Assembly (NCBI GenBank): GCA_024276465.1
Contig: JAJRXD010000103.1
Span: 1-64,000 of the forward strand
Direction of reading: 5' to 3'
Length of the DNA: 64,000 bases
Origin: Deltaproteobacteria bacterium
Lineage (GTDB): Bacteria; Desulfobacterota; WTBG01; CAIYCZ01; CAIRTM01
The position numbers and the translations under genes were made by a program. This document shows, piece by piece, positions 42,925 to 58,503 of this stretch; positions within the stretch are counted from its first letter, which is position 1; each line of letters opens with the position of its first letter. Under the pieces are notes generated by a model that searched no databases, was not told the origin of the DNA, and saw only the letters and a program-made list of their open reading frames with translations.

Positions 42925-44082
42925 ATGGCATCAAAATCACCGGAATTGAAGTTTATTGAGGCACATTGCAAAGCGCTTGATAAAAGTCTTAAAGATCTTA
43001 CGGTTGAGGCGCTCCGGTCTCTTTTCGGGCATGTATATTATATCTGGAGAACATTCAAACCAGCCCTGGGTGAAGAGGACGGGCTGAAGTTATATGGGAA
43101 TGTGTGGGCAGCATTAGCCGGAATATCATTCGGCAATGCCCTGAGGGATCTGAAAATCAAAGAGGTAAAGGACCTGCCAACGCTTGGAAAAATCGTGCAG
43201 TACTGTTTTACAGGAGTTCCGGCCCTGTATGTTATTAAGCGAAACGAAAAGGATGAGCACGTTGGGCATGTGCTCTGGTGTGCAAATCCTGCGTATGGCC
43301 CTGCTGATTGTACTTACTGCAGGCATGATTACTACAGGCAGGAAGTTTATCTGACATACGTTTATATCTGGGCTCTGATTGAAGAGGCAAAAAAAAAGGG
43401 GCTGAAAGAGGATATTCTTGTTGATCTTCCCTCAGGAAGGTGCAGGGACGGAGCTGCCTGTGCATGTCAGATTATCCTGAGGACACGAAATGCAGATCCT
43501 GACCGTCATCTGCCTGAAGTAGAGAACAGATTTGTTGATCTTGAGATGGGAAATCAGGAACCTGTTACCTATGTATTAAAAAAACAGAAAAGAAGGCTTG
43601 AAGATCAGGGCCCCGGCTCTTTCATAGGTTTTTTTGCTGTTGATTTTTTGGCCTGGCTCCAGCTTTACACCCACGCCAGGAAAAAAAGCAGAGACGTATA
43701 TTTGAAACTGTGGAGGACATTCCCGCCCATGTGGGTCAGGGAGGCTCGTCTTGAATGTGAGATAGGACGCGTCAAGTCTGTTAAAGAGCTGGCTGATGTG
43801 ATTATTTACTGCGAGAAAAAAAAATATACAGCCTACAGGGTCAGTTCAATCTCTGAAAAGAGTGTGGTTCTCACATCAGAGGCTGACCCGTTTGTCCAGG
43901 TAGCAGACATGTTCAATGCGCCAAAGGCATACAGGGATGCTCTTGCTGAAGTGGACAGGGATTTTGTGTCGAACATATTAAAACTGACTAAGATGGATAA
44001 AAAAGCGGTTTTAAGTTTCAAGTCACACATGGCAAAAGGTGCCGGAAAAACAGAGATGGAAATTAAAGTTAAACAGATCTGA
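42925..44082 (+). CDS. Unrecognised Cys-rich protein, 385 residues
   Basis: A soluble-looking protein without signal peptide, started with a strong AAAGGAGGAG site. A Cys-rich patch lies at about 117-185: VLWCANPAYG, ADCTYCRHDYYRQEVYLTY, and SGRCRDGAACACQIIL. Seven Cys plus His in this patch suggest metal or cofactor binding. The pattern faintly recalls the ATC-hydrolase-like family (C...C..C then GDxxC), but I cannot assign it. The C-terminal 130 residues are Lys-rich and mixed alpha/beta. It is divergent from the Moco-controlled moaA and not in an obvious operon. Function unknown. Confidence 0.75.
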   Translation: MASKSPELKFIEAHCKALDKSLKDLTVEALRSLFGHVYYIWRTFKPALGEEDGLKLYGNVWAALAGISFGNALRDLKIKEVKDLPTLGKIVQYCFTGVPALYVIKRNEKDEHVGHVLWCANPAYGPADCTYCRHDYYRQEVYLTYVYIWALIEEAKKKGLKEDILVDLPSGRCRDGAACACQIILRTRNADPDRHLPEVENRFVDLEMGNQEPVTYVLKKQKRRLEDQGPGSFIGFFAVDFLAWLQLYTHARKKSRDVYLKLWRTFPPMWVREARLECEIGRVKSVKELADVIIYCEKKKYTAYRVSSISEKSVVLTSEADPFVQVADMFNAPKAYRDALAEVDRDFVSNILKLTKMDKKAVLSFKSHMAKGAGKTEMEIKVKQI

Positions 44083-44253: not shown

Positions 44254-45630
44254 ATGATGAGGCACGTAACTATACTAATAGCTGAAGATGACAGAGAGAC
44301 CAGGCAGCTGCTTATTGAATATCTTATCCAGGAGGGATATGAAGCAATAGGTGTGCAGAATGGTCAGGAAGCCCTTTCTGTTATCAGAAATCAGCATGTG
44401 GATGTTCTTATTACTGATCTCAAAATGCCTAAACTTGATGGAATGCGCCTTTTGTCCAAAGTAAAAAAAGAAAATCAAAGAATAGTCGTCCTGATGATAA
44501 CCGGATTTGCCTGCGTTAATTCAGCAGTGAGAGCAATGAAGCTTGGGGCTGAAGATTATATAACCAAACCAATTAATTTTGAAGAACTCAGGATTCAGCT
44601 TACCAAGGCACTGGAAAAGCAATCAATAAAAAGTGAAAATATCATATTAAAAAAACAACTTAAAGATAAAGATGTTTTTGGAGATATGATCGGCAAAAGC
44701 GAATTAATGGAAAAAGTTTTTCAGCTTATTGAAAAAATTGCTGATGCTGATAGTACTGTTATCATTTATGGTGAGAGTGGAACCGGCAAGGAGCTTGTAG
44801 CCAGGGCTATTCATTACAACAGTCACAGAAGAAACAAACCGCTTGTTCCGGTAAATTGTGGTGCTATTCCTGAGGAGCTGCTGGAAAGTGAGTTGTTCGG
44901 GCATGAAAAAGGAGCTTTTACCGGTGCACATAAAACCAGATTAGGCCGTTTTGAGTTAGCAAATGAGGGCACCATATTTCTGGATGAGATAGGGGATATG
45001 AGTCCGAACCTGCAGGTAAAAATACTAAGGGTCCTGCAGCAGCATGAATTTGAAAGAGTAGGTGGTGTTCAATCTGTCAAGGTTGATATCAGGGTTATTG
45101 CTGCAACGCACAGGGATTTGGAAAAGGCAGTAGCCATGGGTAAATTCAGAGAGGACCTTTACTACCGGTTGAATGTTATACCCATTGTTGTACCCCCCCT
45201 CAGAGAAAGAAAATCCGATATCCCCCTTCTTGTTTCCAGCTTTATTGACAAATTTAACGATGGGAAAGTTAAAGCTATTTCAGATATTTCAGGGGAAGCC
45301 CTTGAGTGTTTTCTTAAATATAACTGGCCAGGGAATGTAAGGGAACTTGAGAACATGATAGAGAGGCTTGTTGTACTGAAATGTCGTGGTGTAATAAATG
45401 TTGAAGATCTGCCTGAGAAGTTGACAGTTGATCTGAAGGAATCCCAACAGCATTCCGCTGGTATTCCTTCAGATGGAACCTCATTCAGTACAATGGTTAC
45501 AAACTTTGAAAGGCAGTTAATTACCCAGGCACTGCAGAAGAGCAATGGTGTAAAAAACAAGGCTGCAAAGCTGTTAAACATGAACAGGACCACTCTTGTT
45601 GAAAAGATAAAGAAGTTAGAAATACAATAG
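44254..45630 (+). CDS. Sigma-54-dependent NtrC-family response regulator
   Basis: A 458-residue activator. Receiver at 5-120 with DD at 11-12, Asp55 in LITDLKMP and Lys in EDYITKPI. AAA+ domain at 148-375 with GESGTGKE from 173, the sigma-54 contact loop GAFTGA at 220-225, DEIGDMS and the second-region GNVRELENMIERL. The end carries a Fis-type helix-turn-helix (KNKAAKLLNMNRTTLVEKIK). No kinase lies beside it. The start has no good ribosome binding site. The downstream cell-wall cassette is a possible target, but no sigma-54 promoter was found before it. Confidence 0.93.
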   Translation: MMRHVTILIAEDDRETRQLLIEYLIQEGYEAIGVQNGQEALSVIRNQHVDVLITDLKMPKLDGMRLLSKVKKENQRIVVLMITGFACVNSAVRAMKLGAEDYITKPINFEELRIQLTKALEKQSIKSENIILKKQLKDKDVFGDMIGKSELMEKVFQLIEKIADADSTVIIYGESGTGKELVARAIHYNSHRRNKPLVPVNCGAIPEELLESELFGHEKGAFTGAHKTRLGRFELANEGTIFLDEIGDMSPNLQVKILRVLQQHEFERVGGVQSVKVDIRVIAATHRDLEKAVAMGKFREDLYYRLNVIPIVVPPLRERKSDIPLLVSSFIDKFNDGKVKAISDISGEALECFLKYNWPGNVRELENMIERLVVLKCRGVINVEDLPEKLTVDLKESQQHSAGIPSDGTSFSTMVTNFERQLITQALQKSNGVKNKAAKLLNMNRTTLVEKIKKLEIQ

Positions 45631-45640
45631 AATGTAACAC

Positions 45641-45804
45641 ATTAGTAGTTGTCCAAAAACGAGATTGCCGCGCTTTGCTCGCAATGACAATACAAATCAA
45701 AATCAAGAGGTTACTGTCATTGCGAGGAGCGCAGGCGACGAAGCAATCTCAACATTAAAACAGATGCAAAAACAATACATTAATACTGTATTTTGGACAC
45801 TAAT
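45641..45804. repeat. Palindromic MITE-like repeat element
   Basis: Outer arms ATTAGT-n-TGTCCAAAA (45641-45657) and TTTTGGACACTAAT (45791-45804) are inverted. Inside, GAGATTGCCGCGCTTTGCTC (from 45661) is mirrored by GGAGCGCAGGCGACGAAGCA ATCTC ending at 45750, with TGCGAG/CTCGCA and TGTCATTG/CAATGACA pairing around the centre. From general knowledge this 'GAGATTGC...GCAATCTC' repeat is widespread in deltaproteobacterial and other environmental genomes. It has no coding capacity. Confidence 0.75.
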
Positions 45805-45843: not shown

Positions 45844-47139
45844 ATGGGAAAAGATACTTATAAATTAATTTTTTCAATGCTTTTGATTTTGTCTGTTCAA
45901 ACGCAGGCATATGCAGGCAAACATTCAGCAGATGAAAAAAATTTGCCATACTGGCCGGCAGGAATTATATCAGTTGACAGCAGGTATGCAGTCCTTGTTG
46001 AAAAATCATCTCAAAAACTTTTTTTTTATCGTGTTACCAGAGATGAAGTTGAACTGATTAAAAAGTACAGCTGTTCTACAGGGAAAGTTCATGGAGACAA
46101 ATCAGTAAGAGGAGACAGGAAGACACCCGAGGGTGTTTATTTTATAAGAAAACTATATGCAGATGAACAGCTTCCATCAAGATATGGCGTGATGGCTTTT
46201 GTCCTTGATTTTCCCAACTATCTGGATAAAAGCAATGGCAAGGGAGGTAACGGTATATGGATTCACGGTCTGGACAGGCCTCTTTTACCATATGATTCAA
46301 AGGGGTGCATAGCGCTGACAAATGATGACATCATGGAACTTAAATCATATATAAAACTTTATGATACCCCTGTAATAATTGAAGAAAAAATTACGTTTGA
46401 AACCCCTTTGCAGATTAAAAGGCAGAGGGAAGAGGTGATGAGATTATTGAACAGGTGGGAAAATTCATGGGAAGAGAAGTCTCTGGAACAGTATGTGAAC
46501 TGTTACTCTCATACCCGGTTTAAACCTGATAAAACGAAATGGAGTCAGTGGAAGCAACACAAAAAATCTCTGAATAATAAATACAAATTCATTGATGTTG
46601 ATATTAAAAATTTAAGCATTTTGAAATCCGGAAAAACCTATGTGGTCAGTTTTCTGCAGGATTATGAATCCGACAGATTTTCCAGCTCAGGGTTTAAAAA
46701 GCTTTTTTTACAGGCAAACAGTGAAAACCTTAAAATAGTAGGGGAAGACTGGATAAAGGCAACTGCATATACACCTGGCCATGATGGCAGTTCAGTTTCT
46801 GAAGAAAGAAAATTAATCCGCTTTCTTAACAGGTGGATAACACTATGGGAAAACAAGAAAACAGATCTATACATGGGCTGTTATTCAAAGGCCTTTAATT
46901 CTGAGGGCAGGGGATGGAAACAGTGGAAACAATACAAGTCGAAGGTCAACAGTAACAACCGCATTATTAAGGTTTCTGTTATTAAACCCAGAATTCTGAT
47001 ACATGGGGATGATGCAACCGTAACGTTCATACAGAAATATGTTTCCGACACTTATACTGACTATGGTTTGAAAAGGATAGGACTTCTTAAGGAAAAAGGT
47101 TCCTGGAAAATAATTTCCGAAGGATGGGAGCCAATTTAA
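45844..47139 (+). CDS. Csd6-like YkuD-fold peptidase with two NTF2-like domains
   Basis: A 431-residue exported protein (signal peptide 1-24, ending AYA). Residues 45-180 are an L,D-transpeptidase (YkuD) domain with the catalytic pair His141 in WIHGLDRP and Cys155 in DSKGCIALTNDDI. Two NTF2/SnoaL-like domains follow (about 195-310 and 320-431), each starting with a helix of the kind EEVMRLLNRWENSWEEKSLE and having an SQWKQHKKSLN-type loop. Helicobacter Csd6, an L,D-carboxypeptidase of this fold with one such domain, shapes helical cells. It acts on peptidoglycan peptides in the periplasm; transpeptidase against carboxypeptidase activity cannot be told from sequence. Confidence 0.85.
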   Translation: MGKDTYKLIFSMLLILSVQTQAYAGKHSADEKNLPYWPAGIISVDSRYAVLVEKSSQKLFFYRVTRDEVELIKKYSCSTGKVHGDKSVRGDRKTPEGVYFIRKLYADEQLPSRYGVMAFVLDFPNYLDKSNGKGGNGIWIHGLDRPLLPYDSKGCIALTNDDIMELKSYIKLYDTPVIIEEKITFETPLQIKRQREEVMRLLNRWENSWEEKSLEQYVNCYSHTRFKPDKTKWSQWKQHKKSLNNKYKFIDVDIKNLSILKSGKTYVVSFLQDYESDRFSSSGFKKLFLQANSENLKIVGEDWIKATAYTPGHDGSSVSEERKLIRFLNRWITLWENKKTDLYMGCYSKAFNSEGRGWKQWKQYKSKVNSNNRIIKVSVIKPRILIHGDDATVTFIQKYVSDTYTDYGLKRIGLLKEKGSWKIISEGWEPI

Positions 47140-47193
47140 ACGTTAAGTCCCATCATTCCAAATCTTTTTTTGTTGAAGTGGTGTTAAATCAGG

Positions 47194-47946
47194 ATGAGCA
47201 GAGAATTTACAGTAATGCTGTTGTCTAAAAATAAAGGCCGGCATTATTCTTTTAAGGTCAGTCTGGTCGGCATGGCAATGCTGATGATTTTTGCTGTTTG
47301 TCTTATCTCCCTGACGATTGTATCTCTTTTTAACTATGTTGATGAACACAGGCAGAACAATGATTTTGCAACTCAGATAAAACTACTGGAAGCTGAAATC
47401 GGCAGTTTGAATAAGAATAGCAGGGAAGCATATCTTTATAAACAGTGGGCAGACAGGATAATTTTCAGGAGATTAAATTATGAAAACGACAACAATACTA
47501 TTGCCGGGAGCATTGTTGACGGAGTAATACCCGATGAATCCTCAATAAGGCTGAAACATTCCTTTCTGGATATTGATGGGTTTGACGTAAGGAGAATTAA
47601 ACCCGGCTTTGACTTTGAAATATCATTTAAGCTGATCAACAGGTTTAAAGGCAATAAAAACCACTCAGGCTACATCTTCCTCATAGCCAGCAACAATGAA
47701 ATAATTCCAGGTCTTTATTCCTCCTGGCCTTTGGCAGAGTTATTGGCTGGAATGCCCAAAGATTATAAAAAAGGATATAGATTCTCAATCCGCTATTTAA
47801 AAAATATTAAGGGAAGAATCAATCAGCCTGAAGCTGGCCCGAAGTTTAACCGTGTTGATTTAATAGCTTATTCTGAAGACGGAAATATTTTAATGAAGAA
47901 GGGATTTTACATTGGGAGGCTTTTATTGCAGAGCCCTTCTGAATAA
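47194..47946 (+). CDS. Membrane-anchored protein between Csd6- and Csd4-like genes
   Basis: A 250-residue protein with a short basic cytoplasmic start, one membrane helix at about 25-47 (LVGMAMLMIFAVCLISLTIV) and a short coiled coil at 55-75. A periplasmic beta-rich domain follows (FDVRRIKPGFDFEISFKLIN, SGYIFLIASNNEIIPGLYSS). The start of the chain resembles membrane-anchored M23 peptidases, but no M23 motif is present. It lies 54 bases after the YkuD gene and six before the M99 gene, so it is probably part of the same complex, perhaps as scaffold. Family unknown. Confidence 0.75.
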   Translation: MSREFTVMLLSKNKGRHYSFKVSLVGMAMLMIFAVCLISLTIVSLFNYVDEHRQNNDFATQIKLLEAEIGSLNKNSREAYLYKQWADRIIFRRLNYENDNNTIAGSIVDGVIPDESSIRLKHSFLDIDGFDVRRIKPGFDFEISFKLINRFKGNKNHSGYIFLIASNNEIIPGLYSSWPLAELLAGMPKDYKKGYRFSIRYLKNIKGRINQPEAGPKFNRVDLIAYSEDGNILMKKGFYIGRLLLQSPSE

Positions 47947-47952
47947 GTATTT

Positions 47953-49425
47953 ATGCAGACAATAGATTTCAGACACAAGTGTTACTGCCGGGTGGTCAGA
48001 TTAATTTTCCTTTTTTCCTTCATTCCTTTACCCGTATTTGCCTATCAGCAGCATCAGGTTTTTTTCCAGAATACTGATTACGAACTCAATATTTACCGGA
48101 TTTATGGAGAGGAACCTGGAAAAACCCTGCTGATAATAGGAGGAATTCAGGGCAATGAACCAGGGGGATATCTGGCTGCAGACATGTATGTTGAAATCTC
48201 CCTTAAAAAAGGAAACCTTATTGTTGTGCCGCGCGCAAACTTCAGCTCTATTTTAAGAAATGTCAGGGGCATTAATGGTGACATGAACCGGAAGTTTGCC
48301 AATGTTGATTTGAAAGGTTCTGACGGCCTTATTATCGAAAAATTAAAGGATCTGATTAAAGAAAGTGATTTTCTTCTTAATCTCCACGATGGGTCCGGCT
48401 TCTATTCCGAGGAATCGGTATCTGACCTGAAAAATCCCCTGAGGTACGGGCAATCCATAATTGCCGACTGTGAAACCTTCTTTTCCAAAAAAAGCAATAC
48501 TATCTTTGACCTGGGTGCCATGGCCAGAAAGGTATGTTCAAAAATAAATGCTGAAATTAAGAACAAAAAACACCACTTTCATTTCAACAATCACAGGACA
48601 TTGTCTCCTGACACAATTCATCCTGAACAGAGGAAGTCAGCAACCTATTTTGCATTAACCCAGCATGACATACCCGCATTTGGGATCGAAACTTCCAAGA
48701 GTCTGCCATCCCCCAAACAGAATGTCCGTTACCAGACAATGGTTATTAATGCTTTCATGGAAGAATTTGGTATTATCCCTGAGCAGCCAAGGATTGCCCT
48801 GCCAGACCCGAAAATGAAATATATTATTGTTGCAGTAAATGACGCACCACCCATGGTGGTTTACAACGGAGAGACACTTTTTATTGAAAAGGGTGATACG
48901 GTAAACATAATACATGCTGAAGTAAATTATGAAAGGGGAATCACAGCAAATGTTATAGGCATGGGTTCTTTTAATGATATTAGAAAAGAATTTCCTGTTT
49001 ATAAAGAGACATATATTATTGTCAAAAAGGATAATTTGAAGTGTGGGAAAGTTTACATTGCTTTTAAAGAACCCTCAGAAAAAAGGGTTTCAGGGAAAAC
49101 TGCTGTAAGGTATCTCATCGTGCAGATTAACAGGAAAAAGATAGCATTATCTCCCGGTGAGCATTTGAAAGTCAAAAGAGGTGATGTTCTGGTACTCAGA
49201 GACCTTATAACAGATTTGCCAACAAAAGAAAAAATGAAGGTTAACTTTAAGGGTTTTGTGGGCAACAGGAAGTATAATGATGGTGAAGACCGCGGCTACA
49301 GGATAAATACTGCCAGGGACCTTATGGTTAAATATTCCAAAAAACATAAAGGCCTGAATTACAATATAATTGTTAACAAAGCAGGTAAAACCATAGCAGT
49401 TTTTTTTGTTAATATTTTTGACTGA
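47953..49425 (+). CDS. Csd4-like M99 peptidoglycan carboxypeptidase
   Basis: A 490-residue exported protein (signal peptide 1-32, ending VFA). Residues 50-275 are a zinc carboxypeptidase domain. The usual HxxE is replaced by Gln66-x-x-Glu69 in GGIQGNEPGG; His145 in LLNLHDGSGF is the third ligand and Glu246 in AFGIETSKS is the likely catalytic base. Helicobacter Csd4, which trims peptidoglycan tripeptide for helical shape, is known for exactly this atypical Gln ligand. Two beta domains follow (280-490), as in that family. The gene follows the membrane protein by six bases. Confidence 0.85.
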   Translation: MQTIDFRHKCYCRVVRLIFLFSFIPLPVFAYQQHQVFFQNTDYELNIYRIYGEEPGKTLLIIGGIQGNEPGGYLAADMYVEISLKKGNLIVVPRANFSSILRNVRGINGDMNRKFANVDLKGSDGLIIEKLKDLIKESDFLLNLHDGSGFYSEESVSDLKNPLRYGQSIIADCETFFSKKSNTIFDLGAMARKVCSKINAEIKNKKHHFHFNNHRTLSPDTIHPEQRKSATYFALTQHDIPAFGIETSKSLPSPKQNVRYQTMVINAFMEEFGIIPEQPRIALPDPKMKYIIVAVNDAPPMVVYNGETLFIEKGDTVNIIHAEVNYERGITANVIGMGSFNDIRKEFPVYKETYIIVKKDNLKCGKVYIAFKEPSEKRVSGKTAVRYLIVQINRKKIALSPGEHLKVKRGDVLVLRDLITDLPTKEKMKVNFKGFVGNRKYNDGEDRGYRINTARDLMVKYSKKHKGLNYNIIVNKAGKTIAVFFVNIFD

Positions 49426-49764
49426 TAAAAACACTTGGTCAAAATGAGTTCTGCTTTGCTCTGAAACCACATTAAATAAAAGAGATCTGGTTGTTACAGC
49501 AGCACACCCTGATTTTTTTGCTTTCTTCCATTGTTTCGTGTTGATTTCAGCAATCATTCCAGTCATCTCCATTGGCATGTTCCTTGCTCTATTTAGTGGA
49601 CAAATTGTAAACAGAACCGGTCATCCGGAGAAAGCTCTCAAATAATCTGAATCCTTAATTGATCTGAATTATCTCCATACAGTTGTTGTGTCAATTTACT
49701 GACATGTGCAGACATATTTATGAATTATTATTGTTTATCTTTTCATGCAGCGGCAAATTAAAAA
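49426..49764 (+). other. Intergenic region with sigma-54 promoter
   Basis: The gap holds the sigma-54 promoter at 49572-49588 (own entry). The plus-strand frame 49450-49642 reads a hydrophobic stretch (FVLISAIIPVISIGMFLALF) ending at TAA and lacks an early start codon. It could be the decayed end of a transporter gene, but the evidence is weak. Confidence 0.3.
49572..49588 (+). promoter_or_regulatory. Sigma-54 promoter of the flagellar operon
   Basis: TTGGCATGTTCCTTGCT matches the -24/-12 consensus (TGGCAY-n5-TTGCW), with GG at 49574-49575 and GC at 49586-49587 exactly ten bases apart. It faces the AMIN/TPR gene 175 bases downstream. All following genes to 62729 run the same way with short gaps, so it may serve a long flagellar unit. 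Confidence 0.75.
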
Positions 49765-52700
49765 ATGAGAGGGGCAAATTTTTTTAAACCAGCTTTTATT
49801 TTTCTTGTTCAGGCAGCCATAATTCTTCTGCTTTCGGGCAGGGCTTTTTCTGTTGAAAAGCTTGACCCGTATTCAGCAGAATTCAGAATTATTCCCGACA
49901 GCTCAGCAGTGTGGTCTGACATGGATGTGAGCCTTGACTTTTACATTCATAATGATGATGAGGGAAAACTTGTCGGCAGCAAATTTATCTGTTCTGAAGC
50001 AATTGAATCAGTAATCATTACAGATGGAGAGGGGAAGAGGCTTCCTTACACAATAAAGAAATACCCCCGCAAAAGAATTATCTGGGAATACGGTCCATCC
50101 AGGGCTGGTGTCAGGAGAGCAAAAATCAGTTTTTTAATCAGAAACGCTGTCAAGAGAACTGAAAAAAACTATATGATTAACATTGACTGGATTAAGTGGA
50201 ATCGCCCGGTTTTGAATGCAACAGTAAGTATAATACTGCCTGGTGAAATTACCAGTGATGATCTGGTTTCTGTGTTTCCAAAAGAATACAGGATTGTTAA
50301 AACTGCAAACACAAGCAACTTATTTTATAAGTTCGGGAAACTTGAAGCAAAGTCCATAAAGCTTATTGTCAGAGAAAAAAAGAGAAACAAAACAGGCAGC
50401 GTAAACAGGAAAGTTAAATCCGGAAAAATCATTCTTAAAAACATTAGAATTGCTCCCCACAATTCAACAACTGACAGGATTGTCTTTGATCTGAACAGGG
50501 CAGTTCCATTTGAAATCATTCATCATCCTGAAAAAAACGAAGTTGAAATTGTCTGGAAGTTACCGGTAAAGGTTTCTGAAAAGGCAATAAACAACAAACT
50601 GAGTAAAAGCAGGTTTATAAAGGGACTGTACTGGAAAAAAGAATTAAATAAAAAATTGTCCTGCATTGTCCGGTTGAAGAAAAAGAATTTCAGAATCAGG
50701 TATGGTACACTGCCTGATCCACCCAGGGCATATATTGATGCCTCTGTTGTAGAGAAAGTAAAGCCGGACAGGAAGAAAAACCGGAAAAAAACAGATCATA
50801 TAACTGAAAAAACATCAGAAGTATCTCATAAAACAGAAATAAAAAGGCCGGATTTGAAAGAAACAGTATTGCATCCTCCAAAAACTGTTTTTCCTGCAAA
50901 AACTACTGTTAAGGCGGGTCATGAGGAAGCACCAATAGAAGAGAGAATAGCATATAATAAAGTTAAAAAGCTTTTCAAATCAGGGGAGTATCAGAGCGCT
51001 TTATCAGCTTATGATGAGGTTTTAAGAAAATTTCCTGATACAGTTTTTAAAGAGGATATTTTTTTCAAAACAGCTGATATTTACTATCTGATGTCTGAAG
51101 AAAATGATCCAAAAAAATTATTAAGTGCAATTAGGGCCTACAAAAAAGCAGTTCTGCATTTTCCAGAATCTGACAAATCACCCCATGCCACCTACAGGAT
51201 TGCTGAATGTTACAGGAAAAGGAAATTTTTTGTAGAGGCAAAGAGCCAATATCTGTATTTTATTAAAAAGTACCCTGAAAATTCACTGGTAGTCGATGCC
51301 AGGTTCTGGGTAGCTGAATGTTTATATCAAATGTTTAAATTCAAGGATGCACTGAAAGAGTTTGAGCGTTTTGTTGATGACTTTCAGGCAGGTCCTCATG
51401 TCAAGGAAGCAATGTTTAGAATTGCGGATTGTTACTATAAGGTAAATGATTTTGACAGGGCTGAATATTATTATGAAAAAGTACTAAAGAAATGGCCTGA
51501 CATGAGTGTGCTTCCCATGGATACCCTTAACAATATGGGAACTACATTTTATTACAGGGGAAAATTTGAAAAAAGCCGTGATATTTTATTTCTTTCCTTT
51601 AATATTTATCCGTCTCAAAATAACAGAGAACGGCTTATCAGATTTGCAGGTGATTCATATCAATGGGAGGGTGATATGCAAAAAGCACTCAACATATATG
51701 AGCACCTGATAGCCCTTTTCCCGGATTCTTCTGAAAGTATGATTGCAGCTGTAAGGATGGCAGATCTGGGTGTTAATGTTTCAGGCCTTCATAGCGCTGA
51801 CTTTACTTTTAACGGGTTTAACCCTTACCGGGAACCGGAGAAAGCATATCAGTGGGTAATTAAAAATGATAATATCGGGGACCTGAAGACAGAGGCTTTT
51901 TATAAACTGGGATTTATTCAGGCAAAAGAGGGACATTATTCAGAAGCTGTTCAATTTTTTAAACGCTCCATGTATCAAAAACAAAAAGGCCCTTATTATG
52001 AAAAATCTGTTAAGAACATAAAAAAAATTTTAGTCAAAATGATCAATAAAGCCTCGGCAGAAAAAGATTATTTTTCTGTGGTGGAACTATACCGGAAAAA
52101 TGAGGATAGTTTTTTGAAGACTATAGATGACTGTTATTTTAACTATAATGTAGGGCTTGCGTATCTTGAGTTGGGCTTCATAACCACGGCAGAAAAATAT
52201 TTTGAAAGTATTCTGGCAAAAACTGATAGTTCAGACTGCAAACAAAAATCCGTGGTTTCTCTGAGCCGCGTTGACCTGAGCAGAGGAAATTATGAAAAAG
52301 CAGAAGAAAGACTCAGTATTCTACTGTTTCGGGATCAGGTCGAACCTTCTGTTAAGGAAATTGCTTATCATCTTTTAGGTGATTCATATTTCATGGGAAA
52401 AAAATACAGGGAAGCTGTTGGAGCATATTCTACTGTACTGGAAAAAGATAATGAATCATTCAGGTTTGCCTTAAGCCTTTACAGATTAGGCGAATCTCTT
52501 GGCAGGACCGGCTATTATTACAGTGCTGTTAAGACATTGAAAAAACTTTTAGTTATGGATGATAAAACAGGCCGGCACATGGATGAATTAAAGGGCATAC
52601 AGGAAGAGGCAGGACTGCTGATAGGAGATTTTTTCTTTAAAAAGAAAAATTTTAAAGCAGCAATTAATGCTTACAGGAGTTTTTCAGAATCGACCACCAA

Positions 52701-52899
52701 CAGGAATAAAAAAGGGTGGGCACTGTTTAAATGGGCTGAGGCTTTGCTGAAAACAGGGGAGTTGGGGAGAGCTTCTGAAATTTTTAGTGAGGTAGAAAAA
52801 GAGATGCCCTATAATTTTTTAGGCCGTTTTGCCAGTGAAAAGGTTAACGAGATAAGATGGAAGAACAGTTTTCAACCTGTCCTGAAAGAATTCATGTAA
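49765..52899 (+). CDS. AMIN-domain TPR protein heading the flagellar operon
   Basis: A 1044-residue exported protein. Signal peptide 1-28 (ending GRAFS). Residues 32-205 are a beta-rich domain without a name. Residues about 217-335 resemble an AMIN domain (ILKNIRIAPHNSTTDRIVF, then FRIRYGTLPDPPRAYIDA), a peptidoglycan-binding module also found in PilQ. A Lys/Thr-rich linker follows, then from 405 to the end many tetratricopeptide repeats (YQSALSAYDEVLRKFPDT, ATYRIAECYRKRKFFVEAKS, FRIADCYYKVNDFDRAEYYY). It lies 20 bases before the FlrB-type kinase gene. It is probably a periplasmic scaffold for the flagellar or envelope machinery; this is inferred from position. Confidence 0.8.
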   Translation: MRGANFFKPAFIFLVQAAIILLLSGRAFSVEKLDPYSAEFRIIPDSSAVWSDMDVSLDFYIHNDDEGKLVGSKFICSEAIESVIITDGEGKRLPYTIKKYPRKRIIWEYGPSRAGVRRAKISFLIRNAVKRTEKNYMINIDWIKWNRPVLNATVSIILPGEITSDDLVSVFPKEYRIVKTANTSNLFYKFGKLEAKSIKLIVREKKRNKTGSVNRKVKSGKIILKNIRIAPHNSTTDRIVFDLNRAVPFEIIHHPEKNEVEIVWKLPVKVSEKAINNKLSKSRFIKGLYWKKELNKKLSCIVRLKKKNFRIRYGTLPDPPRAYIDASVVEKVKPDRKKNRKKTDHITEKTSEVSHKTEIKRPDLKETVLHPPKTVFPAKTTVKAGHEEAPIEERIAYNKVKKLFKSGEYQSALSAYDEVLRKFPDTVFKEDIFFKTADIYYLMSEENDPKKLLSAIRAYKKAVLHFPESDKSPHATYRIAECYRKRKFFVEAKSQYLYFIKKYPENSLVVDARFWVAECLYQMFKFKDALKEFERFVDDFQAGPHVKEAMFRIADCYYKVNDFDRAEYYYEKVLKKWPDMSVLPMDTLNNMGTTFYYRGKFEKSRDILFLSFNIYPSQNNRERLIRFAGDSYQWEGDMQKALNIYEHLIALFPDSSESMIAAVRMADLGVNVSGLHSADFTFNGFNPYREPEKAYQWVIKNDNIGDLKTEAFYKLGFIQAKEGHYSEAVQFFKRSMYQKQKGPYYEKSVKNIKKILVKMINKASAEKDYFSVVELYRKNEDSFLKTIDDCYFNYNVGLAYLELGFITTAEKYFESILAKTDSSDCKQKSVVSLSRVDLSRGNYEKAEERLSILLFRDQVEPSVKEIAYHLLGDSYFMGKKYREAVGAYSTVLEKDNESFRFALSLYRLGESLGRTGYYYSAVKTLKKLLVMDDKTGRHMDELKGIQEEAGLLIGDFFFKKKNFKAAINAYRSFSESTTNRNKKGWALFKWAEALLKTGELGRASEIFSEVEKEMPYNFLGRFASEKVNEIRWKNSFQPVLKEFM

Positions 52900-56852: not shown

Positions 56853-56886
56853 TCAGCACTTTTTTTCATGTTAAAGGTTGGAAATA

Positions 56887-58503
56887 ATGGATTATCTGAA
56901 TAGAGCAGTAAAGCAAATACTCGGAGTGTATAATGCGCTGCCCCCTAAAAAAAGACTGTTTTCGATAATTACGATTTTACTTACAATAGGCTCTCTTGTT
57001 GGCCTGGTTTACTGGGCAAACAGGGTTGAATACAGGCCGCTTTATACCGGCCTTAACTCTGAAGATGCCGGTGCTGTTGTAAACAAACTCAGGGAGATGA
57101 AAGTCCTGTATAAAATCGGGGTAAATGGGAATTCAATTATGGTCCCGGCTGCTTCAGTCTATGAGCTTCGCATGGAAATGGCACGAGAGGGCATTCCGCA
57201 AAGCAGCGGTATAGGATATGAAATTTTTGACAGGCAGAGTATAGGTGTAACTGAGTTCATTCAGAAGGTTAACTACCAGAGAGCTCTTCAGAGTGAGCTT
57301 TCACGCACTATAAACCAGTTTTCTGAAGTGAAAAGCTCAAGAATACACCTGGCTATTCCTGAAAAGACCCTGTTTATTGATCAGCAGGAAAAACCCCGTG
57401 CTGCGGTTGTTTTGAAACTTTTACCTGGTAAACGGCTCAGAGAAACTCAGATTCAGGGTATTATACACCTTGTTGCAAGCAGTGTTGAGGGTTTGTCGGA
57501 AGATGATGTTAATATTGTAGATTCTCATGGCAATTTGCTTGCAGGAGGTGAGAAAAAAACCAGTCTTTCAGGGCTTAGCTTTTCGCAGCAGGAATTGCAG
57601 CAGACAACAGAGGAGAAATTAGAAAAAAAGATAGAATTAATGCTGGCAGATATTGTAGGCCCGGGTAGTGTAACTGCCAAAGTTTCAGTTGCAATGGATT
57701 TCACGCAGGTTGAACAGACAGAAGAAAACTATGATCCGGACAAAGTTGCAGTTCGAAGTGAACAGCGGTCAACTGAAAAATCATCGGGCAAGAGGCCTGT
57801 TAGTTCCGGAATACCGGGTGTCATGTCAAACACACCTGATTTAAACAAGCCCGAAACCAGTGCTGTCCCGACCAAGACCGTAAACTACAATAAGTCTGAT
57901 GAAACAATAAACTATTAAATAACGCATGTTACAAAAAGAATAATTAATCCGGTAGGATTAATTGAAAGAATAACCGCAGCCATCCTGATTGATGGAACAT
58001 ACACCACGGTCAAAAACAAGGACGGGGAAGATGTTCGAAAATATGTTCCCAGGACTGAAGAGCAGATGGGAAAGTACACAGCCCTTATAAAAAAGGCTAT
58101 CGGCTATGACAAGCAAAGAGGTGATTCCGTAGAAGTTGTAAACGCCCGCTTCAATAAAGCAGTTTCAGAGGAAGAAACTATTTCTGACAGGTTCCTCCAG
58201 GAGATTGACTGGCAATCCATGATCACATATGTGATTACTGCAATTTTATTTGCACTGTTTTTTGTTTTTGGGCTGAAACCGCTTTTAAGCATGCTGTCAA
58301 AAACAGTAAAGGATGCAGAGATGTCAAGGGGCCTTCCTGAAGGCAAGAGAGAAATTGAAGGTGCTGGTGGCAGTGATGAGCTTCCTCCCGGAGTTTCAAT
58401 GGAGGGGGCTGCAAAACTTGGCGAGAGGGAGAGTCAGCTTGTGAATTTTGCGCAGACTAATCCAAAACTTTTTGCGCAGTATATAAAAAGCTGGCTACAG
58501 TAA
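56887..58503 (+). pseudogene. fliF: Flagellar MS-ring protein FliF, interrupted by in-frame TAA
   Basis: The full frame has 538 codons and is typical of FliF. Start at the ATG with AAAGG upstream; membrane helix at 22-42; ring-building motifs (YRPLYTGLNSEDAGAVVNKL, ARVHLAIP-like SSRIHLAIPEKTLF); C-terminal helix at about 448-468 and an acidic FliG-binding tail. A single TAA at 57916-57918 cuts the frame after ETINY. The same frame continues ITHVTKRIINPVGLIERITA. FliF normally has Glu at this site (NYE), so GAA to TAA is the simplest change. As written the cell would make only the N-terminal 343 residues and could not anchor FliG; an error in the sequence or readthrough would rescue it. Confidence 0.9.

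Follow-up and report, generated by a model that had tools for sequence, protein, structure and literature searches.

A conserved cassette of Bd1075-like and Csd4-like carboxypeptidases with a candidate bactofilin adaptor in Desulfobacterota

Peptidoglycan peptides are trimmed in two steps by enzymes of known shape pathways: Csd6, Pgp2 and Bd1075 turn tetrapeptides into tripeptides, and Csd4 and Pgp1 turn tripeptides into dipeptides. The helical shape of Helicobacter needs Csd4 and Csd6 together with the bactofilin CcmA, and no interaction of Csd6 with CcmA, Csd5 or Csd7 was seen (PMC9507126). Bd1075 is an L,D-carboxypeptidase (LD-CPase) that makes Bdellovibrio curved, its NTF2 domain directing the protein to the convex side (PMC10653827, PMC8938487), and the authors of the targeting study stated that no mechanistic basis was known by which a protein could be sent to a single lateral side (PMC8938487). 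A bactofilin recruits the bitopic M23 endopeptidase LmdC directly: a cytoplasmic beta-hairpin at the N-terminus of LmdC binds bactofilin and is required for recruitment (PMC10945521). Here we describe three adjacent genes, P1, P2 and P3, in a 64,000-nucleotide stretch of contig JAJRXD010000103.1 from a Deltaproteobacteria bacterium (GCA_024276465.1; hereafter the window), which encode a Bd1075-like enzyme, a single-pass membrane protein and a Csd4-like enzyme. We give a probability of about 0.5 to the reading that together they trim the wall as one module and supply their own adaptor to the cytoskeleton, with P2 coupling a cytoplasmic bactofilin to periplasmic trimming of tetra- to tri- to dipeptides.

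The three open reading frames (ORFs) are all on the + strand and are separated by 54 bp (P1/P2) and 6 bp (P2/P3; Table 1), confirming the grouping reported in a first-pass annotation of the sequence. That annotation called P1 Csd6-like with two NTF2-like domains. The YkuD and NTF2 make-up and the domain count both hold: P1 matches YkuD (PF03734, 8e-20) and Cds6_C (PF24125, 2e-34) above the Pfam cut-offs, the latter in two separate stretches (46435-46746 and 46813-47121). The choice of relative does not, and by sequence the nearest solved relative of P1 is Bd1075, the Bdellovibrio curvature enzyme (PDB 7O21, 9e-53), rather than Csd6; Pgp2 of Campylobacter jejuni (3e-26) and Csd6 of Helicobacter pylori (4XZZ, 4e-24) share the YkuD and NTF2 domains and the LD-CPase pocket residues with P1 but are remoter. 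The catalytic residues H141 and C155 are invariant across the 68 P1 relatives compared. The D-Ala pocket is mostly kept in the same set, with Y114 a Tyr in 55 and a Phe in 13, and W139 a Trp in 58. This Tyr/Trp pocket is a mark of LD-CPases, whereas DpaA carries Met in place of the Trp (PMC10653827).

Convex-face targeting of Bd1075 requires an NTF2 Tyr (Y274) and a C-terminal Trp (W303) (PMC8938487), of which W303 was reported as Bdellovibrio-specific and absent in other LD-CPases. Both residues are present in each of the P1 NTF2 domains (Y274/W303 and Y399/W428), and among 127 NTF2 domains of relatives the first position is Tyr in 93, with Trp at the second in 67 and any aromatic residue there in 107. 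P1 is thus like Bd1075 in its YkuD and NTF2 domains, its catalytic residues, and the pocket Tyr and C-terminal Trp of its NTF2 domains; it differs in having two NTF2 domains, as do 48 of the 68 P1 proteins (the other 20 have one), and in being encoded in a cassette with P2 and an M99 peptidase, often together with a bactofilin.

P3 belongs to the M99 peptidases (PF17033, 3e-41). The active site of Csd4 comprises Gln46, Glu49, His128 and Glu222 (PMC4220969), and P3 has the full set as Q66/E69/H145 and E246, so that its description as a Csd4-like M99 protein with a Gln66 metal ligand was sound. The retained Gln had been singled out as atypical; it is the usual ligand in this family, being present in 78 of 85 readable M99 relatives, and is not obligatory, with His in the remaining seven. 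P3 resembles Csd4 and Pgp1 in the QxxE...H metal site, the catalytic Glu and the substrate Arg positions, and is unlike Csd4 in its C-terminal repeats past the catalytic domain, which gave no Csd4 match in a PDB search. The window genome has a second M99 gene (L043 7910-10146, on G000:C69) that is closer to canonical Csd4 and is paired with a VanY/M15-type D,D-carboxypeptidase bearing a Tat-like signal; the same pair occurs in the related genome G002 (L040 9131-11412) and constitutes another two-enzyme trimming pair.

P2 matches nothing in Pfam or NCBIfam, and P2 taken with 11 relatives gives no meaningful Pfam family, the single Cds6_C match among these 12 stemming from the NTF2 part of a fused protein; DUF6776, considered as a possible family, gave no match. 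Two AlphaFold runs with 12 and 56 sequences (mean predicted local distance difference test scores of 80 and 88) concur on a beta-hairpin (residues 4-10/17-23), a long helix that includes the membrane span (24-98) and a beta-sandwich (125-239). A fold search with the P2 model returned just generic Ig/FnIII-like domains with low template-modelling scores and no pointer to an enzyme. P2 is therefore predicted to share with LmdC a cytoplasmic beta-hairpin, one transmembrane helix, a coiled coil and a periplasmic domain. It differs in the nature of that domain, an Ig-like beta-sandwich, in lacking any M23 match in Pfam searches of P2 and its relatives, and in the company of carboxypeptidases; moreover, the LmdC gene adjoins a bactofilin, whereas the P2 gene does so in some loci and not in the family of the window. 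Because no M23 domain was found, P2 is not an LmdC and is merely built like its N-terminal half.

To compare the hairpins we used a hidden Markov model (HMM) made from the pre-membrane hairpins alone of 11 M23 proteins from related genomes, after removal by hand of four M23 rows whose layout was not clearly that of LmdC or whose N-termini carried long extensions. The N-termini of 63 P2 proteins score above 138 other membrane-protein N-termini (area under the curve 0.88, P 4e-18, an optimistic value since the 63 are homologous to one another and not independent), and the top two matches in the supposed background are themselves M23 peptidases encoded beside bactofilins. In the fusions of P1 to P2 (L057/L091, L092 and L095) only the P2 sandwich is retained, and this portion is therefore placed in the periplasm with P1. 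In its proposed role P2 would be comparable to Csd5 and Csd7, the H. pylori CcmA partners, which are likewise transmembrane proteins without enzymatic activity in a shape system built on a bactofilin. No sequence link to them is established; the terminal domain of Csd5 is described as SH3, that of P2 is a predicted beta-sandwich, and the 12 P2 members have no SH3 match in Pfam. There are also stand-alone P2 paralogues, about 40-48% identical (L044 11474-12232 and L042 7384-8163), for which no carboxypeptidase or bactofilin neighbour was recognised.

We surveyed 98 related genomes (G labels; individual loci carry L labels) and 80 named loci from an M99 profile search; the named loci are those most similar to the window M99, and fractions among them are not population frequencies. 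Of the 98 relatives, 20 have an M99 match, 23 a Cds6_C match and 12 a P2 match. P1, P2 and M99 occur in the same order and strand in the window genome (G000) and in G002, G003, G031, G054, G055, G086 (where a TAA breaks the M99 gene) and G092, and probably also in G065, which has the layout of named locus L131; G032 has P1 and P2 fused and followed by M99, and P1 adjoins M99 without P2 in G049, G073 and G095. At least 2.5 kb of upstream sequence is present in 65 of the 80 named loci, with P1 directly 5' of M99 in 57 of these and both P1 and P2 in 45. The first-pass annotation had set conservation of the gene order beforehand as the test that could refute it, and the three genes are collinear in about ten of the 98 relatives and in most of the named loci. 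The order is found across Desulfobacterota and in Latescibacterota and KSB1 metagenome-assembled genomes (MAGs), and its surroundings vary: many Desulfobacterales have pal/ybgF-like and ruvCAB genes upstream and ribosomal-protein genes downstream, others have a purB-like gene, and flagellar genes stand beside it only in the window and G002, with G003 and other lineages differing. Because the gene order recurs in such differing contexts, P1-P2-P3 is a true cassette and more than long-range synteny.

A bactofilin is a frequent further neighbour when P2 is present. Flanks long enough to judge both sides are available for 61 M99 loci; a bactofilin adjoins 25 of the 41 that have P2 and none of the 20 that lack it (Fisher 1e-6). 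It follows M99 in most loci and precedes P1 in L091, L092 and L095; other arrangements include P1-P2-M99-M23-bactofilin (L090), P1-P2-bactofilin (L039), two bactofilins before P2 with an M23 gene upstream (L112), and P2-bactofilin pairs with neither P1 nor M99 nearby (G035 and G072). The neighbouring bactofilins split into clearly separate groups. Desulfocarbo indianensis, whose locus reads P1-P2-M99-bactofilin (L122), is vibrio-shaped (PMC4559730), which fits the proposed role in curvature and is one phenotype. We did not count as evidence a single ORF joining M99 to a bactofilin (L116 9989-12175, in the MAG of the Olavius algarvensis Delta 4 endosymbiont), since it occurs in one MAG and may be an assembly or sequencing error; if real, it would put the bactofilin in the periplasm.

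Several observations weigh against a bactofilin adaptor. Only about 4 changes suffice to place the bactofilin label on the M99 tree, and a phylogeny-corrected test of the P2-bactofilin association on independent pairs was not significant, with too few pairs; the association is strong in kind and rests on few independent evolutionary events. No bactofilin lies beside the cassette in the lineage of the window (G000, G002 and G003). The sole bactofilin detected in the window genome (an assembly 95% complete) is on contig C71, away from the cassette, and is preceded by a separate 101-aa protein (L171 8012-8792) that by sequence has a hairpin, a membrane helix and a coiled coil. This protein matches the P2 profile (6e-8), has no M23, other peptidase or sandwich domain, and resembles LmdC or P2 cut down to its N-terminal half. 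Finally, in the fusion loci L091 and L095 a bactofilin is present but the hairpin-transmembrane part of P2 is missing from the cassette.

The first-pass suggestion that P2 is a scaffold is plausible and can be narrowed to a likely bactofilin adaptor. The adaptor reading can be set out as follows. Secreted P1, judged by its homology and conserved residues, would use its YkuD domain to take the terminal D-Ala off uncross-linked tetrapeptides, and P3 would then take meso-diaminopimelate off the resulting tripeptides to leave dipeptides. P2 would cross the inner membrane with its cytoplasmic hairpin docked onto a bactofilin polymer, by analogy with the LmdC hairpin, and its coiled coil and periplasmic sandwich may retain P1 under that polymer or raise its local concentration there, and perhaps do the same for P3; contact between P2 and P1 is suggested by the fusions that retain just the sandwich. 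Trimming concentrated where the bactofilin lies would be uneven round the cell and could curve the wall, and the cassette may in this way influence cell shape. A tentative proposal, to which we give slightly less than even odds, is that P2 is the founder of a family of bactofilin adaptors without enzymatic activity, each joining an LmdC-type hairpin and membrane helix to a periplasmic domain that recruits L,D- and D,L-carboxypeptidases.

An alternative explanation is that the cassette belongs to a Csd6/Csd4-type shape pathway in which P2 does no more than tether or chaperone both enzymes in the periplasm, uncoupled from bactofilin, bactofilins being near merely since envelope genes cluster. 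In its favour, the fusions show that the P2 sandwich can work without hairpin or membrane helix, 16 of the 41 P2 loci as well as the family of the window have no adjoining bactofilin, and the independent bactofilin events are few. Against it stand P2-bactofilin pairs that have neither enzyme nearby, a conserved hairpin resembling the bactofilin-binding hairpin of LmdC, and several gene arrangements with clearly different bactofilins, and we consider this explanation unlikely.

It is also conceivable that both carboxypeptidases mainly shrink the tetra- and tripeptide pool, for turnover or for control of cross-linking or lipoprotein attachment, with little role in shape. P1 does weakly match the DpaA amidase model as well, and a relative in Aeromonas caviae altered both motility and the length of the cells, while initial studies of it detected no change in muropeptides (PMC4398505); against this, P1 keeps the LD-CPase pocket Tyr and Trp, where DpaA has Met for the Trp (PMC10653827), its two NTF2 domains carry the Bd1075 targeting residues, and the nearest characterised relatives of the two enzymes (Bd1075, Pgp2, Csd6, Csd4 and Pgp1) are all shape determinants, making this reading improbable. 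A service to flagellar assembly, opening or strengthening the wall round the basal body, is suggested by the position of the cassette just upstream of an operon that begins with a 1044-aa tetratricopeptide repeat (TPR) protein and continues with a histidine kinase, a response regulator, flgB/flgC and then fliE-fliF-fliG (flagellar proteins by Pfam), a neighbourhood shared with G002. Among some 100 loci, however, flgB/flgC/fliE are beside the cassette in these two only, and the cassette is separated from the next gene by 339 bp that include a sigma-54-like site (49573-49588; across the window these sites occur no more often than chance predicts). We rejected a flagellar role because the neighbourhood is so confined, and regard it as very improbable.

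Upstream of P1 is an NtrC/AtoC-type response regulator gene (Table 1) that is probably co-transcribed with the cassette in G002 and G003, where the two are 16 bp and 1 bp apart; given these short gaps, the regulator probably belongs to the operon in the family of the window. In the window itself the spacing is 213 bp, and this spacer holds a palindromic repeat element (TCATTGCGAGGAGCGCAGGCGACGAAGCAATCTC and its inverse, 45658-45750) present as a single copy in the window. Further upstream, 42925-44082 encodes a 385-aa protein without a Pfam match; G002 has an ORF of about this size upstream of its cassette (L041), and G003 possibly has one as well (L046). Downstream, the TPR protein (49765-52899; YbgF/BamD-like repeats) is kept in G002, and fliF (56878-58503) has an in-frame TAA at 57916-57918 within a conserved motif, reflecting either a decayed gene or a MAG assembly error.

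Table 1. Features of the cassette and its upstream regulator, in window coordinates.
Feature	Position	Strand	Description and basis
NtrC/AtoC-type sigma-54 response regulator	44254..45630	+	Pfam/NCBIfam
P1	45844..47139	+	431-aa ORF; secreted YkuD-type L,D-carboxypeptidase-like protein with two NTF2-like domains (Bd1075/Csd6/Pgp2 type)
P1 YkuD catalytic domain, residues 48-179	45985..46380	+	Pfam PF03734
P1 first NTF2-like (Cds6_C) domain	46435..46746	+	PF24125 match; Y274 and W303 align to Bd1075
P1 second NTF2-like domain	46813..47121	+	Y399 and W428 in equivalent places
P2	47194..47946	+	250-aa single-pass membrane protein; proposed bactofilin adaptor
P2 predicted cytoplasmic beta-hairpin, residues 4-23, LmdC-like	47203..47262	+	AlphaFold; hairpin-only HMM
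P2 transmembrane and coiled-coil helix, residues 24-98	47263..47487	+	AlphaFold
P2 periplasmic Ig-like beta-sandwich, residues 125-239	47566..47910	+	AlphaFold, fold search; joined directly to P1 in some relatives
P3	47953..49425	+	490 aa; M99 (Csd4/Pgp1-like) D,L-carboxypeptidase-like protein; Pfam, PDB 4wck/4q6m, active-site residues
P3 M99 catalytic domain	48121..48774	+	Profile match

Each of the enzyme families is already known, as are bactofilin-M23 operons; our searches of the open-access literature found no description of P2 or of an operon combining an LD-CPase, a D,L-carboxypeptidase and a bactofilin. A conserved operon of this kind that also encodes a hairpin-bearing membrane protein is a concrete candidate for the missing targeting link. 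If the adaptor reading is true, it would directly connect a cytoplasmic polymer associated with curvature to periplasmic peptide trimming and would provide a mechanism for the one-sided targeting of Bd1075-type enzymes, and the cassette suggests a way in which wall trimming might be steered to one side of the cell in many curved bacteria, most of them uncultured.

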